Part shown: piece by piece, positions 12,523 through 17,965 of the stretch | Position numbering within the stretch: position 1 is the first letter of the stretch | How the letters are laid out: the number at the start of each line of letters is the position of its first letter | Program-made: the position numbers and the translations under genes | Assembly (NCBI GenBank): GCA_937866945.1 | Contig: CALMKU010000260.1 | Span: 1-47,849, forward strand | Reading direction: 5' to 3' | Length of the DNA stretch: 47,849 nt | Origin: an uncultured Tolumonas sp. | GTDB taxonomy: Bacteria; Pseudomonadota; Gammaproteobacteria; Enterobacterales; Aeromonadaceae | The notes under the pieces: generated by a model | What the model saw: only the letters and a program-made list of their open reading frames with translations | Databases searched by the model: none | Told to the model about the DNA's origin: nothing

Positions 12523-15500
12523 TTAATGCAGTTTATGTTGCCACTGTTTCACCAACGCATAAATCGCCGGGATCACCAGCAGTGTCAGCACGGTCGATGA
12601 CACCATACCGCCCACCATCGGTGCCGCAATACGGCGCATGACTTCGGAGCCCGTGCCGGTGCCCCACATGATCGGTAATAAACCACACATGATGGTCACG
12701 ACCGTCATCATTTTTGGCCGCACCCGCTCAGCAGCACCCACCACAATGGCCGCATAGAGATCGGTCATACTTGGTATCTCGCCAGTCAACTTCGACTGTT
12801 TTTCTTTCCACGCATGCTCGAGATAAATCAGCATGATGACGCCGGTTTCCGCCGCTACCCCGGCCAGTGCGATAAAACCAACCACCACAGCGACTGACCA
12901 GGCGTAGTTCAGCCACCACATCAGCCAGATCCCACCCACCAGAGCAAACGGCACTGAGAGCAGCACAATCAAACTATCGGTCAAATTGCGGAAATTGAGA
13001 TACAACAACAGAAAGATGATCAGCAAAGTAAACGGCACCACGATGGCCAAGCGAGCCTTCGCGCGTTCCATATATTCAAACTGACCACTCCAGCTTAAGT
13101 GGTAACCCGGTTCCAGTTTGACCTGCTTATCGACTGCCGCTTTGGCATCGGCGACATACGAACCGATATCGCGATCACCCAAGTCGACATACACGTAAGC
13201 AGACAACTCGGCATTTTCAGTGCGGATGCTTGGCGGCCCTTGCTCCAGCAATAAACTCGCCAGCTGACCCAATGGGATCAAGCCGCTAGTGGTCGGCACT
13301 AACACCTCGCTGGCAATCGATTGCGGGGTATCACGCAATTCACGTGGATAACGCAAAATCACACTGTAACGCTCACGCCCTTCCACGGTATTCGTAATGG
13401 TTTCCCCACCCAGTGCCGAAGCAATCACCTGTTGCAGCGTGTTGATACTGACACCATAACGCGCCAGTGCATCACGATCAGGGTTCAGCGTCAGATAATA
13501 ACCACCGGTAATGCGTTCGGCATAGGCACTACGAGTGCCCGGTACCTGCTTCACCGCCTGTTCCACCTGCCGGGCAATGCGTTCAATACCAGCCAGATCG
13601 GGACCAAACACCTTGATGCCAATCGGCGTGCGAATACCGGTCGACAGCATGTCGATACGCGCACGGATCGGCATGGTCCATGAGTTGGCAACCCCCGGCA
13701 TTTTCACCGCTTTATCCATCTCGTCCACCAGCTTTTCAGCGGTCATCCCCGGACGCCATTCTGATTCCGGTTTCAAGTTCACTACGGTCTCGAACATCTC
13801 CAGCGGCGCCGGATCGGTCGCCGTATTCGCCCGCCCCGCTTTACCAAACACTGAAGCTACTTCCGGGAACGATTTAATAATGCGATCTTGCTGCTGCATC
13901 AGCTCCGCTGCTTTGGTCACACTCAGGCCCGGTAATGCGGCAGGCATAAATAGCAGCGTACCTTCGTGCAGCGTCGGCATAAATTCACTGCCGATCTGTT
14001 TGAGCGGAAACCAGGTTACTGCCAGCATGACCAGAGACAACAAAATCGTGGTTTTCTTAAAGCGTAACACAACGGAAATAAAGGGTTTATAACCGGCAAT
14101 CAGCACCCGGTTGATCGGGTTTTTCTGCTCGGCAATGATGTGACCGCGAATAAACAGCAGCATTAACACCGGCACCAGCGTCACCGATAGCAAAGCCGCA
14201 GCAGCCATCGAGAAAGTTTTGGTGAATGCCAGCGGGCTGAACATGCGGCCCTCTTGGGATTCCAACGTAAACACCGGCAGGAAAGAGACCGTAATGATCA
14301 GCAGTGAGAAAAACAGCGCCGGCCCGACCTCTTTACAAGCCTCGTAGATAATATCGCGCCGCGGTGTGCCGGGTGCCGCACGCTCCAGATGTTTATGCGC
14401 GTTTTCCACCATCACGATTGCCGCATCGATCATCGCCCCAATGGCGATGGCGATACCGCCGAGACTCATGATGTTGGAATTTAGCCCCAGCAGATGCATA
14501 CCGATAAACGCGGCTAAAATGCCGACCGGTAACATCAAGATTGCCACCAGCGCACTGCGCACATGCAACAGAAACACGATACAAACCAGCGCCACAATGG
14601 CACTTTCTTCCAGCAAGGTCTTTTTCAGGGTATCAATCGCACGGTAAATCAATTCCGAGCGGTCATACACCGGCACCACTTCCGTGCCTGCGGGCAAACT
14701 GGCTTTCAGACTTTGTAATTTCGTTTTAACCTGTTCAATGACATTCAATGCATTTTCACCACTGCGCGCCACCACGATGCCGGACGCCACTTCCCCTTCA
14801 CCATTCAACTCAGCCAACCCGCGGCGTTCATTCGGTGTCAGTTCGACTTGCGCCAGATCGCCGATCCGTACCGGCGTGCCATTGACCGATTTCACCACCA
14901 ATTGGCGGATATCATCGAGACTGCGCAGATAACCCTTGGCGCGCACCATAAACTCGGTTTCCGCCATCTCAATGACACGGCCACCGACATCCTGATTGTT
15001 GTTGCGCACGACATCCATCACCTCAATCGGCGAGATGTTGTAGGCTTGTAGTTTGCGCGGGTCGAGCACCACCTGATATTGCTTCACAAACCCGCCGACA
15101 CTGGCAACTTCGGCGACGCCAGGAGTAGCGGAGAGCGGATAGCGTAGTGTCCAATCTTGCAATGATCGCAGTGCGGCCAGCGACTGATTTTTGGCCACCA
15201 GCGCATATTGATACACCCAACCGACACCGGTGGCGTCTGGCCCAAGTGTCGGTGTAATGCCGCTCGGTAATTTGCCCGACACACCGTTTAAGTATTCCAG
15301 CACTCGTGAGCGCGCCCAATACAGATCGGTGTGATCGTCAAAAATGACATACACAAAGGAAGAACCAAAAAACGAGTAACCGCGCACCACCTTGGCTTTC
15401 GGCACCGACAGCAAAGCCGAGGTCAGCGGATAGGTGACTTGATCTTCCACCACCTGCGGTGCCTGACCGGGGTAATCGGTGTAAACAATCACCTGCACAT

Positions 15501-15630
15501 CCGACAAGTCAGGAATGGCATCGAGCGGCGTTTTCATGACCGCATAAATACCACCGGCAATGGTCAGCAACGTCAGCAGCAACACCAGAAACAGATTGTG
15601 CAGTGACCAGTGGATAAGTCGTTGTAACAT
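12523..15630 (-). CDS. cusA: Heavy-metal efflux RND pump, CusA-type (copper/silver)
   Basis: 1035 residues (E. coli CusA 1047), collinear from LDAIPDLSDVQVIVYTDYPGQAPQ to the C-terminal membrane bundle. The three methionines that bind Cu(I)/Ag(I) in E. coli CusA (573, 623, 672) are all conserved here as M562 (LLFM), M612 (APLEM) and M661 (RIDM) with a constant offset of 11. The transmembrane relay block GGIAIAIGAMIDAAIVMVEN is intact. The pump is an inner-membrane trimer driven by protons that expels monovalent copper or silver from periplasm and cytoplasm. Its start lies 2 bases after the cusB stop, so the genes are tightly coupled. Confidence 0.95.
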   Translation of the reverse strand: MLQRLIHWSLHNLFLVLLLTLLTIAGGIYAVMKTPLDAIPDLSDVQVIVYTDYPGQAPQVVEDQVTYPLTSALLSVPKAKVVRGYSFFGSSFVYVIFDDHTDLYWARSRVLEYLNGVSGKLPSGITPTLGPDATGVGWVYQYALVAKNQSLAALRSLQDWTLRYPLSATPGVAEVASVGGFVKQYQVVLDPRKLQAYNISPIEVMDVVRNNNQDVGGRVIEMAETEFMVRAKGYLRSLDDIRQLVVKSVNGTPVRIGDLAQVELTPNERRGLAELNGEGEVASGIVVARSGENALNVIEQVKTKLQSLKASLPAGTEVVPVYDRSELIYRAIDTLKKTLLEESAIVALVCIVFLLHVRSALVAILMLPVGILAAFIGMHLLGLNSNIMSLGGIAIAIGAMIDAAIVMVENAHKHLERAAPGTPRRDIIYEACKEVGPALFFSLLIITVSFLPVFTLESQEGRMFSPLAFTKTFSMAAAALLSVTLVPVLMLLFIRGHIIAEQKNPINRVLIAGYKPFISVVLRFKKTTILLSLVMLAVTWFPLKQIGSEFMPTLHEGTLLFMPAALPGLSVTKAAELMQQQDRIIKSFPEVASVFGKAGRANTATDPAPLEMFETVVNLKPESEWRPGMTAEKLVDEMDKAVKMPGVANSWTMPIRARIDMLSTGIRTPIGIKVFGPDLAGIERIARQVEQAVKQVPGTRSAYAERITGGYYLTLNPDRDALARYGVSINTLQQVIASALGGETITNTVEGRERYSVILRYPRELRDTPQSIASEVLVPTTSGLIPLGQLASLLLEQGPPSIRTENAELSAYVYVDLGDRDIGSYVADAKAAVDKQVKLEPGYHLSWSGQFEYMERAKARLAIVVPFTLLIIFLLLYLNFRNLTDSLIVLLSVPFALVGGIWLMWWLNYAWSVAVVVGFIALAGVAAETGVIMLIYLEHAWKEKQSKLTGEIPSMTDLYAAIVVGAAERVRPKMMTVVTIMCGLLPIMWGTGTGSEVMRRIAAPMVGGMVSSTVLTLLVIPAIYALVKQWQHKLH

Positions 15631-15632
15631 GG

Positions 15633-17006
15633 TTACTGCCCTCCCATGCTGGAGAAGGCGGCTTGCAGGTTACTTTCGGAATCGATCAGGAAGTTGGCCT
15701 GTGTCACTACCTTTTCACCCGCCTGCACACCGGAAATTGCAATCTGGCGTTCGCCATTTTGTACTTCCCCGCGTGCCAGCACCTGCACTTTGCGTGGCAC
15801 ATATTTACCGTTGCCTTGATCTATCAACACCACCTGCCGATGACCGCTGTCGATCAATGCCGATTCCGGGATCACCAGTTGCCCTTGTGCACTGATTGGC
15901 ACTTGTAAACGCGCTTCGGCATACATCCCCGGTTTGAGTTTGCCTTGCTGGTTATCCAGCTCAATCCGTACCTGTACGGTGCGTGTTTCCGCATTCATCG
16001 TCGGGTAGATAAATGCCAATTTGCCGGTAAATGTTTCCGCCGGATAGGCATTCACTTTCACCTGCACCGTTTGCCCTACATTTACTACCGCCAGATCTTG
16101 CTCAAAAACTTCAACCAATAACCAAAGCTGCGACAGATCGGCAATCTGGTATAACGCATCCCCGGCATTAAATTTCATGCCTTGGGTGACATTCTTAGTC
16201 ATCACGATACCATTGCTCGGCGCTTGCAGCGACAGGGTACGCTTAACCTCCCCACCCGCAGCTAACCGATTGATCGCGGCGGTAGGAATATCCCAATAAC
16301 GTAACCGAGTTAGTGCCGCACCGCCTAAACCTGCCGGTGACAACTTGTCAGCATCCACATTGGGTTGGGTTTGCCGTGCGATACGATATTCCTGCTGCGC
16401 CACGATCAATTCGGGGCTATAGAGCTCAAACAACGGTTGCCCGGCTTTTACCTGTTGCCCCGTTGCATTGACATAGAGTTTATCGACCCAGCCATCCAGT
16501 TTACTGGTAATGGTATATTGCCGACGCTCATCCACCGCAAACATACCGACCGCTTTGATTTGGCGATCCAGCTGCGCAGTTTTGACAACAACCGACATGA
16601 CCCCCAAATTTTGCCGGCGGGTTGCATCAATGCTGACCGAACCTTGCTCGGCTGGTGCCGCATCGGCATACACCGGAATGTAATCCATACCCATACTGTC
16701 TTTTTTCGGCACGGGGGATTTATCCGGCTGCCCCATCGGGTTGCGGTAATACAGCACTTTGCGCTCTGCGGGCTGTGCTTGCGCTTCGTCGGCATACACC
16801 GGAATGTAATCCATACCCATGCTGTCTTTTTTCGGCACAGGAGATTTGTCCGCCAACCCCATCGGATTGCGATAGTAGAGAATTTTCCGCTCAACCGTTT
16901 TTTGTTCAGCACTAACCGTTGCCGTTTGATGCGCAAACCAGCCATAACTGGCTGCACCACCAGCCACAACACCGACCAACAGCAGTAACACAGAGGATAT
17001 TTTCAT
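15633..17006 (-). CDS. cusB: CusB-type periplasmic adaptor with duplicated metal-binding segment
   Basis: 457 residues from the ATG at 17006, with GGAG 8 bases upstream; a GTG at 17018 in frame is less likely. An N-terminal hydrophobic anchor (residues 4-20) is followed by two copies, 42 residues apart, of the methionine-rich CusB metal-binding segment (YYRNPMG...SPVPKKDSMGMDYIPVYAD at 44-73 and 86-115). Then come the barrel-sandwich hybrid, helical hairpin, beta-barrel and membrane-proximal domains. E. coli CusB has one such segment, as I recall, with three metal-binding methionines; here two sets occur (M49/M63/M65 and M91/M105/M107). The protein links the RND pump to an outer-membrane channel and hands metal to CusA. 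Confidence 0.93.
   Translation of the reverse strand: MKISSVLLLLVGVVAGGAASYGWFAHQTATVSAEQKTVERKILYYRNPMGLADKSPVPKKDSMGMDYIPVYADEAQAQPAERKVLYYRNPMGQPDKSPVPKKDSMGMDYIPVYADAAPAEQGSVSIDATRRQNLGVMSVVVKTAQLDRQIKAVGMFAVDERRQYTITSKLDGWVDKLYVNATGQQVKAGQPLFELYSPELIVAQQEYRIARQTQPNVDADKLSPAGLGGAALTRLRYWDIPTAAINRLAAGGEVKRTLSLQAPSNGIVMTKNVTQGMKFNAGDALYQIADLSQLWLLVEVFEQDLAVVNVGQTVQVKVNAYPAETFTGKLAFIYPTMNAETRTVQVRIELDNQQGKLKPGMYAEARLQVPISAQGQLVIPESALIDSGHRQVVLIDQGNGKYVPRKVQVLARGEVQNGERQIAISGVQAGEKVVTQANFLIDSESNLQAAFSSMGGQ
16641..16892 (-). repeat. In-frame tandem duplication inside cusB (2 x 126 bp)
   Basis: Units 16767-16892 and 16641-16766 each encode 42 residues beginning ERK(I/V)LYYRNPMG. Nucleotide identity is high but not complete across the shared core (for example the ATGTAATCCATACCCAT stretch occurs in both), so the duplication is not freshly made. 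Both copies keep every methionine of the motif. Confidence 0.9.
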
Positions 17007-17084
17007 GCCCGACTCCACACCCGGCTCAACACCGGGCGTTATTCAAACCATCATCAACAGCCATGCGGCAGCCAACCTGTCGTA

Positions 17085-17456
17085 TTACATGGAATGCAGC
17101 GATACGATGGTGGGTGCTTCACCTTCGTTGACAGTGAACATCGCCATGATGGTTTGACCGGGTTGCAACCCTTGCAGCAAATTCGCATCAGCCACCTTGA
17201 ACGGCATGGTCATCGCCGGCCAGTTCAGCTCAGTGACAGCATCGTGTTCCAGTGTCACTTGCTGATTTGCCACATCAACAGATACAACGCGACCATTCAG
17301 CGGATACGTCTGCTGCTGTTGCTGGCTCATCGCCATACCAGACATCTGGCTCATGTCATGGGGTGACATTGCTTCTTCGGCTTGTGAGCCGACAGCAAAC
17401 AACGCAGTCAGTGTAAATAAGGCAATACGGGCAAATTGAGTAGTAGTGGAAGTCAT
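17085..17456 (-). CDS. cusF: CusF-like periplasmic copper/silver-binding protein
   Basis: 123 residues from the ATG at 17456, preceded by CGGAG; the longer reading from 17516 has no support. A signal peptide (about 1-26) is followed by a Met/His-rich tail (MSPHDMSQMSGMAMSQ, 30-45) and the OB-fold CusF domain. The Cu(I)/Ag(I) ligands are present with exact spacing: H71, W79, M82 and M84 (NWPAMTMPF), equal to H36, W44, M47 and M49 of E. coli CusF. It would carry metal in the periplasm and deliver it to CusB. It lies 78 bases upstream of cusB on the same strand. Confidence 0.92.
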   Translation of the reverse strand: MTSTTTQFARIALFTLTALFAVGSQAEEAMSPHDMSQMSGMAMSQQQQQTYPLNGRVVSVDVANQQVTLEHDAVTELNWPAMTMPFKVADANLLQGLQPGQTIMAMFTVNEGEAPTIVSLHSM

Positions 17457-17563: not shown

Positions 17564-17965
17564 TCAGATGATAAGAGCGAGCGGCGGCGGTGAAAGAACG
17601 CCGGGAATGAAGTCACGATAGAGGGAATCTACCGCGGGAAAATGCAGTTGGGTTTGTGCCGCCAATTCGCGCACAGGCGCAATCGCGGGCGGTACACCGG
17701 TGCACAATGGCAAACAACTGGCACATTGCGAACCATGTTGCTGCATATCATGCGAAGCGTGGGTATCCGACTTAGTGACGACGGGCGAAGCCATCGTCTC
17801 ATGCATGCTGGCATGACAAGATTCCACCATTTGCATCGGCGCTTTAACCGCCAATGTGGTTTGTGGAAATTCGGCACGGGTCATCGATTGCCACGCCGCA
17901 ACCGACTGGAATGGGATCCAGCCTGTTAGCAACAGCATCAATATTAACCCGCAACGTCGCAGCAC
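17564..17965 (-). CDS. Exported His/Cys/Met-rich small protein, probable copper-associated
   Basis: 133 residues, first gene of the copper operon. A signal peptide (about 1-24, ending SVAAW) is followed by a stretch rich in metal-binding residues between about 50 and 88, with several His and Met and a C-ASC-LPLC cluster of cysteines (QCASCLPLCTG), and a proline-rich C-terminus. It resembles the loosely defined CopL/DUF2946-type small proteins found in copper operons, but I do not recognise it with certainty. The cysteine cluster and location suggest metal sensing or sequestration in the periplasm; function unknown. Confidence 0.6.
   Translation of the reverse strand: MLRRCGLILMLLLTGWIPFQSVAAWQSMTRAEFPQTTLAVKAPMQMVESCHASMHETMASPVVTKSDTHASHDMQQHGSQCASCLPLCTGVPPAIAPVRELAAQTQLHFPAVDSLYRDFIPGVLSPPPLALII

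Follow-up and report, generated by a model that had tools for sequence, protein, structure and literature searches.

A tandem N-terminal Met3 unit in a CusB-type periplasmic adaptor of Tolumonas and its counterparts in other bacteria

The window, i.e., the whole stretch of 47,849 nucleotides that was analysed, comes from a 413-contig draft genome of the genus Tolumonas (G000), whose named relatives are T. osonensis and Tolumonas MAGs. It carries the genes of a CusB-type periplasmic adaptor, a CusA/CzcA-type RND pump and a separate CusF-type metallochaperone on the same strand (Table 1), the mechanical open reading frame of the cusB-type gene beginning at a GTG at 17018. The pump retains Met 562, 612 and 661 within the motifs in which E. 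coli CusA has its three metal-binding methionines. In the cusF product, H71, W79, M82 and M84 are spaced as in the E. coli CusF site, and the domain is preceded by a Met/Gln-rich stretch, MSPHDMSQMSGMAMSQQQQQ, which is possibly a further metal-binding tail. The small CopL/DUF2946-like gene upstream of cusF probably shares its operon. No cusC was found beside cusFBA, the OEP profile having no match across the contig of the window, and none lies within 100 kb of the cusB genes of the congeners G002, G003 and G007; the outer-membrane channel used by the pump is probably an unlinked one. Elsewhere in the window, the open reading frame at 5832-6437 matches the AbiTii (abortive infection) N-terminal domain at 35.3 bits, above the cut-off, and adjoins a recQ-like gene.

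Table 1. Positions in the window of the cus genes and of the tandem units in the adaptor
Feature	Position	Strand	Remarks
cusA-type (CusA/CzcA) RND pump	12523..15630	(-)	TIGR00914 1237 bits, cut-off 701
cusB-type periplasmic adaptor gene (P0001)	15633..17006	(-)	457 aa; ATG at 17006
Unit 2 (proximal, adjoins adaptor core), residues 81-122	16641..16766	(-)	ligand Met 91, 105, 107
Unit 2 core YYRNPMGQPDKSPVPKKDSMGMDYIPVY, residues 86-113	16751..16668	(-)	
Unit 1 (distal, nearer the N-terminus), residues 39-80	16767..16892	(-)	ligand Met 49, 63, 65
Unit 1 core YYRNPMGLADKSPVPKKDSMGMDYIPVY, residues 44-71	16877..16794	(-)	
cusF-type metallochaperone, separate gene	17085..17456	(-)	PF11604 86.9 bits, cut-off 27
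Small CopL/DUF2946-like protein	17564..17965	(-)	sub-threshold: CopL_fam 25.4 bits, cut-off 40; DUF2946

The identification of the adaptor as CusB-type, made in an earlier note on this DNA, is borne out by its match to PF16576 (HlyD_D23; 274 bits, cut-off 30) and by its place between CusF and the CusA/CzcA pump. The adaptor also matches TIGR01730 (128 bits, cut-off 94.9) and E. coli CusB 3ne5 (E 1.4e-50). In a Foldseek search with the adaptor model, 3ne5_C is the best match (TM 0.83 by target), and the top matches of the full model cover the adaptor core only. NF007303, the NCBIfam model for copper/silver CusB of the E. coli type, is the best-scoring subfamily, yet its 237 bits lie under the cut-off of 390 bits, so the protein is better called CusB-type than, strictly, an NF007303 member.

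The earlier note had described two in-frame 42-residue units at 16641-16892, and the two units as delimited in the adaptor cover exactly this span. In the whole window, Tandem Repeats Finder reports a single array, at 16663-16892, with a period of 126 bp (42 codons), a score of 362, 86% matches and no indels. The 28-residue cores of the two units are identical at 26 of 28 positions (the two differing positions being LA/QP), and each contains the P-M...M-G-M-D motif. Beyond the two in cusB, no further copies of the unit were found elsewhere in the source genome. The claim that both units match the metal-binding methionines of E. coli CusB also holds, since Met 49/63/65 and Met 91/105/107 align with M21/M36/M38 of the mature E. 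coli protein, unit 2 being the one that phmmer aligns to it. In E. coli CusB, M21, M36 and M38 are the N-terminal Cu(I)/Ag(I) ligands (PMC6235853), and residues 1-61 are by themselves sufficient for partial resistance, binding metal and exchanging it with CusF (PMC6235853; reviewed in PMC4446572).

Pfam HMBD (PF19335, cut-off 23.6 bits), which scores the E. coli CusB unit at 52.2 bits, matches neither unit of the Tolumonas adaptor. The YYRNPMG...MGMDYIPVY class at 16641-16892 is thus invisible to PF19335 and goes unannotated. Searched against all PDB chains, a profile from which E. coli CusB had been left out retrieves SilB 5a4g (E 0.0065), then E. coli CusB (E 0.41), and nothing else; E. coli CusB aside, the solved domain closest to the units is therefore that of SilB, 5a4g residues 24-60. 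These matches support the assignment of the unit motif to the Met3 metal site of the CusB/SilB N-terminus. In the AF2 prediction (55 sequences), the units form two distinct modules of good confidence with a weaker linker between them, the ten-residue blocks scoring 80-92 over the units (pLDDT 87-92 for the blocks of unit 1) and 64 in the linker.

Both units and all six methionines are present in 10/10 congeners in which the N-terminus lies on the contig. These congeners represent independent assemblies, among them the single-contig genomes G003 and G007. An assembly error, which the earlier note had named as a way in which its claim could fail, is ruled out by this two-unit architecture in ten congeners. 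Although the window comes from a draft of 413 contigs, an artefact of fragmentation is exceedingly improbable, as the unit copies also differ at the DNA level in a species-specific manner (82-94% identity). The duplication is confirmed as real. One Tolumonas MAG (G010) carries two distinct cusB-type genes (L033/L011 and L034), one 94% and the other 60% identical to the adaptor of the window; the distal unit of L034 has NAM in place of NPM.

Selection was estimated as dN/dS by the Nei-Gojobori method (own script) over ten gene copies, L001-L010, the species of the window being among them. Unit 1 has a value of 0.043 and unit 2 one of 0.020, whereas the adaptor core reaches 0.100, the inter-unit linker 0.150 and the stretch of 43 residues at the N-terminus 0.278. 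Among 44 sliding 28-codon windows of the core, none has a pN/pS below that of unit 2 and two fall below that of unit 1. The low dN/dS of the units relative to the core argues that both are functional. The distal unit is slightly freer, its rate of evolution being about double that of the proximal unit. In the earlier note, selection had been read from a duplicate that had drifted and yet kept its methionines. Across species this reading stands, as strong purifying selection on both units; within one protein, however, retention of the methionines is uninformative because 26/28 core positions are identical anyway.

The duplication is not peculiar to the Tolumonas source genome. Segments were counted, as the earlier note had proposed, in 217 non-redundant homologues gathered in searches with the whole protein and with only its core. 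One unit is present in 113 of them, two in 76 and three in 5, and 23 have none of this type; a few of these 23, such as L139, L185, L190 and L200, carry E. coli-like or CPMHP-type segments to which the profile is blind. The literature searched with the terms tried yielded no account of tandem N-MBDs in CusB. A core tree (FastTree) requires at least 25 switches between one and several units, so doubling has recurred and does not go back to one event; a YWVAPMD-type pair (L016) and pairs of the FYRNPMNP type are among the independent cases. The subtype of the distal unit differs from that of the proximal one in several Methylococcales. In L049, L051, L059, L067 and L073, a distal unit of subtype FYRHPMNP precedes a proximal YYRNPMGL unit, and some second units may have been acquired by recombination rather than by tandem duplication.

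Such turnover raises the question of whether unit number matters at all. Slippage or recombination, together with conversion, could generate copy-number noise among adaptors for which one or two units are functionally near-equal, and the number of switches on the core tree is in keeping with this. So is the similarity of units within a gene: DNA identity within a gene exceeds that between unit 1 and unit 2 of different genes in 43/59 comparisons (61 two-unit genes), and the unit pair of a single gene groups together in L010, L013 and L034 (support 92, 99 and 89, respectively). DK, DT or DR marks are moreover common to both units within one species, and this, together with the within-gene clustering, points to partial concerted evolution. 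In the nearest Tolumonas clade (L001-L005), however, units group by position, which indicates an old doubling that has persisted without turnover; every congener with an intact N-terminus has two units, and dN/dS is low in both. What the comparison within the genus shows is thus an old, genus-wide doubling, partly homogenised by recombination, and we consider noise an unlikely explanation, all the more so in view of the near-exclusion described below.

The methionines of the two positions behave differently across the family. The proximal unit has all three in 191/194 proteins, the rest being CPMHP-type alignments or register effects, and in 62-63 two-unit homologues neither unit shows any variation in the three methionines, in the G that separates the last two of them or in the D that comes next. 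Among 86 distal units of multi-unit homologues, 64 have three methionines, 20 have none and only 2 have one or two, one of these intermediates also being CPMHP-type. This all-or-none pattern supports the view that the Met3 site, where present, is selected as one unit. On the tree, the metal-less distal units fall in a region rich in Alphaproteobacteria (Dankookia, Siccirubricoccus, Pseudoroseomonas, Limobrevibacterium and rows L218-L225), and three changes suffice to explain the intact or metal-less state on the core tree. Their framework reads YY.DP.G...YS..PKK...GRD[YF].PV, Arg replacing the third Met (GRD) in 16/20. Their homology to the Met units is clear (hhalign E 6e-17), and their predicted fold is similar (pLDDT about 79-86). 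L062, L071, L079, L080, L054, L055, L056, L068 and L218-L225 have one or two metal-less distal units next to a proximal unit that is always intact.

The ligands are gone and the framework is kept, which shows that a unit can be retained without its Met3 site, so that a second unit can serve a purpose other than metal. It could be proposed on this basis that the main role of the distal unit is structural or lies in docking, serving reach, CusF docking or contacts between adaptors, with metal secondary, and that it is a pure pseudo-domain where metal-less. The twenty distal units that lack ligand methionines on a conserved, homologous and similarly folded framework, most with Arg in the third position, argue for this proposal. 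Against it, the three methionines are kept in Tolumonas and in the 64/86 distal units, and the scarcity of intermediates indicates that the Met3 site is selected where present. A mainly structural role of the distal unit is therefore a rather doubtful reading.

A further observation bears on what the second unit might do. Among 145 adaptors with readable C-termini, a C-terminally fused CusF, as detected with a profile that was seeded from the window protein and may miss distant CusF, is found in 49/83 single-unit and 1/62 multi-unit proteins. Because relatives have both traits in common, Mk simulations were run over the core tree for each trait in turn with the other trait fixed; the observed correlation was reached in 2/3150 and 4/4000 runs, i.e., a tree-aware p of about 0.001, for one FastTree topology and a set of proteins collected through their similarity to the window protein. 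A second sample gave fused CusF in 0/19 multi-unit versus 11/27 single-unit adaptors (p 0.0012). In an independent-pairs test, nearly all informative pairs lie in the expected direction, the 1-3 pairs being too few for significance. In loci of at least 9 kb, CusF is found in the neighbourhood of 18/23 single-unit and 7/36 multi-unit adaptors, as raw counts with too few independent pairs behind them. CusB-CusF fusions as such are already known from 22 organisms (PMC3548706). In three single-unit adaptors (L197, L204 and L227; C-terminal parts L247, L248 and L250), two tandem C-terminal CusF-like domains are present. The near-exclusion of several units and fused CusF is non-random, which counts against copy-number noise, and fits a second cis metal site.

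Altogether, these findings lead to a model that we regard as somewhat probable, in which the second unit would give the adaptor a further Cu(I)/Ag(I) site in cis, in the role that the fused CusF domain has in SilB-type adaptors. By its sequence, the adaptor carries two intact Met3 modules in tandem on a flexible N-terminal arm, each module presumably binding one Cu(I)/Ag(I). The distal module would serve as an additional acceptor in cis, receiving metal that the separate CusF delivers, and might pass it to the proximal module or straight to CusA; alternatively, a loaded distal module might let the adaptor switch the pump on. The second N-terminal module would take the part of the C-terminally fused CusF of SilB-type adaptors, which would explain why the two rarely occur together in one protein. 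The interpretation given in the earlier note is plausible and supported in part, and the gain in metal capacity and the two-step relay from CusF to CusA that it suggested may apply. The E. coli assembly has six CusB molecules per CusA trimer (PMC6235853); with two metals per adaptor, a CusB hexamer in an E. coli-like assembly would offer as many as twelve N-terminal sites. A second cis site is no requirement, since many single-unit adaptors lack a fused CusF, and substitution for CusF itself is not implied, since the window has a separate cusF as well as two units. More broadly, it is tentatively conceivable that CusB-type adaptors tend to two cis metal sites, either two N-terminal Met3 units or one plus a fused CusF, and that in Alphaproteobacteria the extra domain became a metal-free GRD module with a different role.

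As the doubled segment is not unique to the source genome, its interest lies in the wider pattern across bacteria. At issue is how the flexible N-terminus of CusB takes metal from CusF and turns on CusA. Adaptors with 0, 1, 2 or 3 modules, metal-less modules and swaps for fused CusF form a ready natural series that would help to separate metal capture, relay and switching. Because the HMBD model is blind to a large class of these domains, their copy number is invisible in standard annotation.

Compared with known systems, the Tolumonas adaptor resembles E. coli CusB (3ne5/3h94; CusCFBA) in its fold, its pump partners, its N-terminal Met3 site and its separate CusF. The E. coli protein, in contrast, has a single N-terminal unit of the W/F type, ILFWYDPMYPNTRFDKPGKSPFMDMDLVPKY, which matches Pfam HMBD. 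E. coli cusC lies in the same operon as cusB, within the CusCFBA cluster, whereas the Tolumonas operon has no adjoining cusC. In the case of SilB from Cupriavidus metallidurans (5a4g), the Met3 N-terminal domain, whose N-MBD has a rubredoxin-knuckle fold and a trigonal sulfur site, is homologous to each unit, and there are two cis metal sites per adaptor, as would also hold for the Tolumonas adaptor judging by its sequence. The second site of SilB is a C-terminal CusF-like domain instead of a second N-terminal unit; unlike SilB, the Tolumonas adaptor stops at residue 457 after the core, and CusF is a separate gene. The adaptors of Stutzerimonas, Methylotenera, Magnetococcales, Methylococcaceae and others share the two Met3 units before the same core; however, some of them mix subtypes (FYRHPMNP then YYRNPMGL), and many have no detectable CusF nearby. 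Finally, alphaproteobacterial adaptors with metal-less distal units (such as L071, L062, L218 and L222) are alike in their tandem N-terminal units, framework and core, but their distal one or two units lack all three ligand Met and typically read ...GRD[YF].PV.
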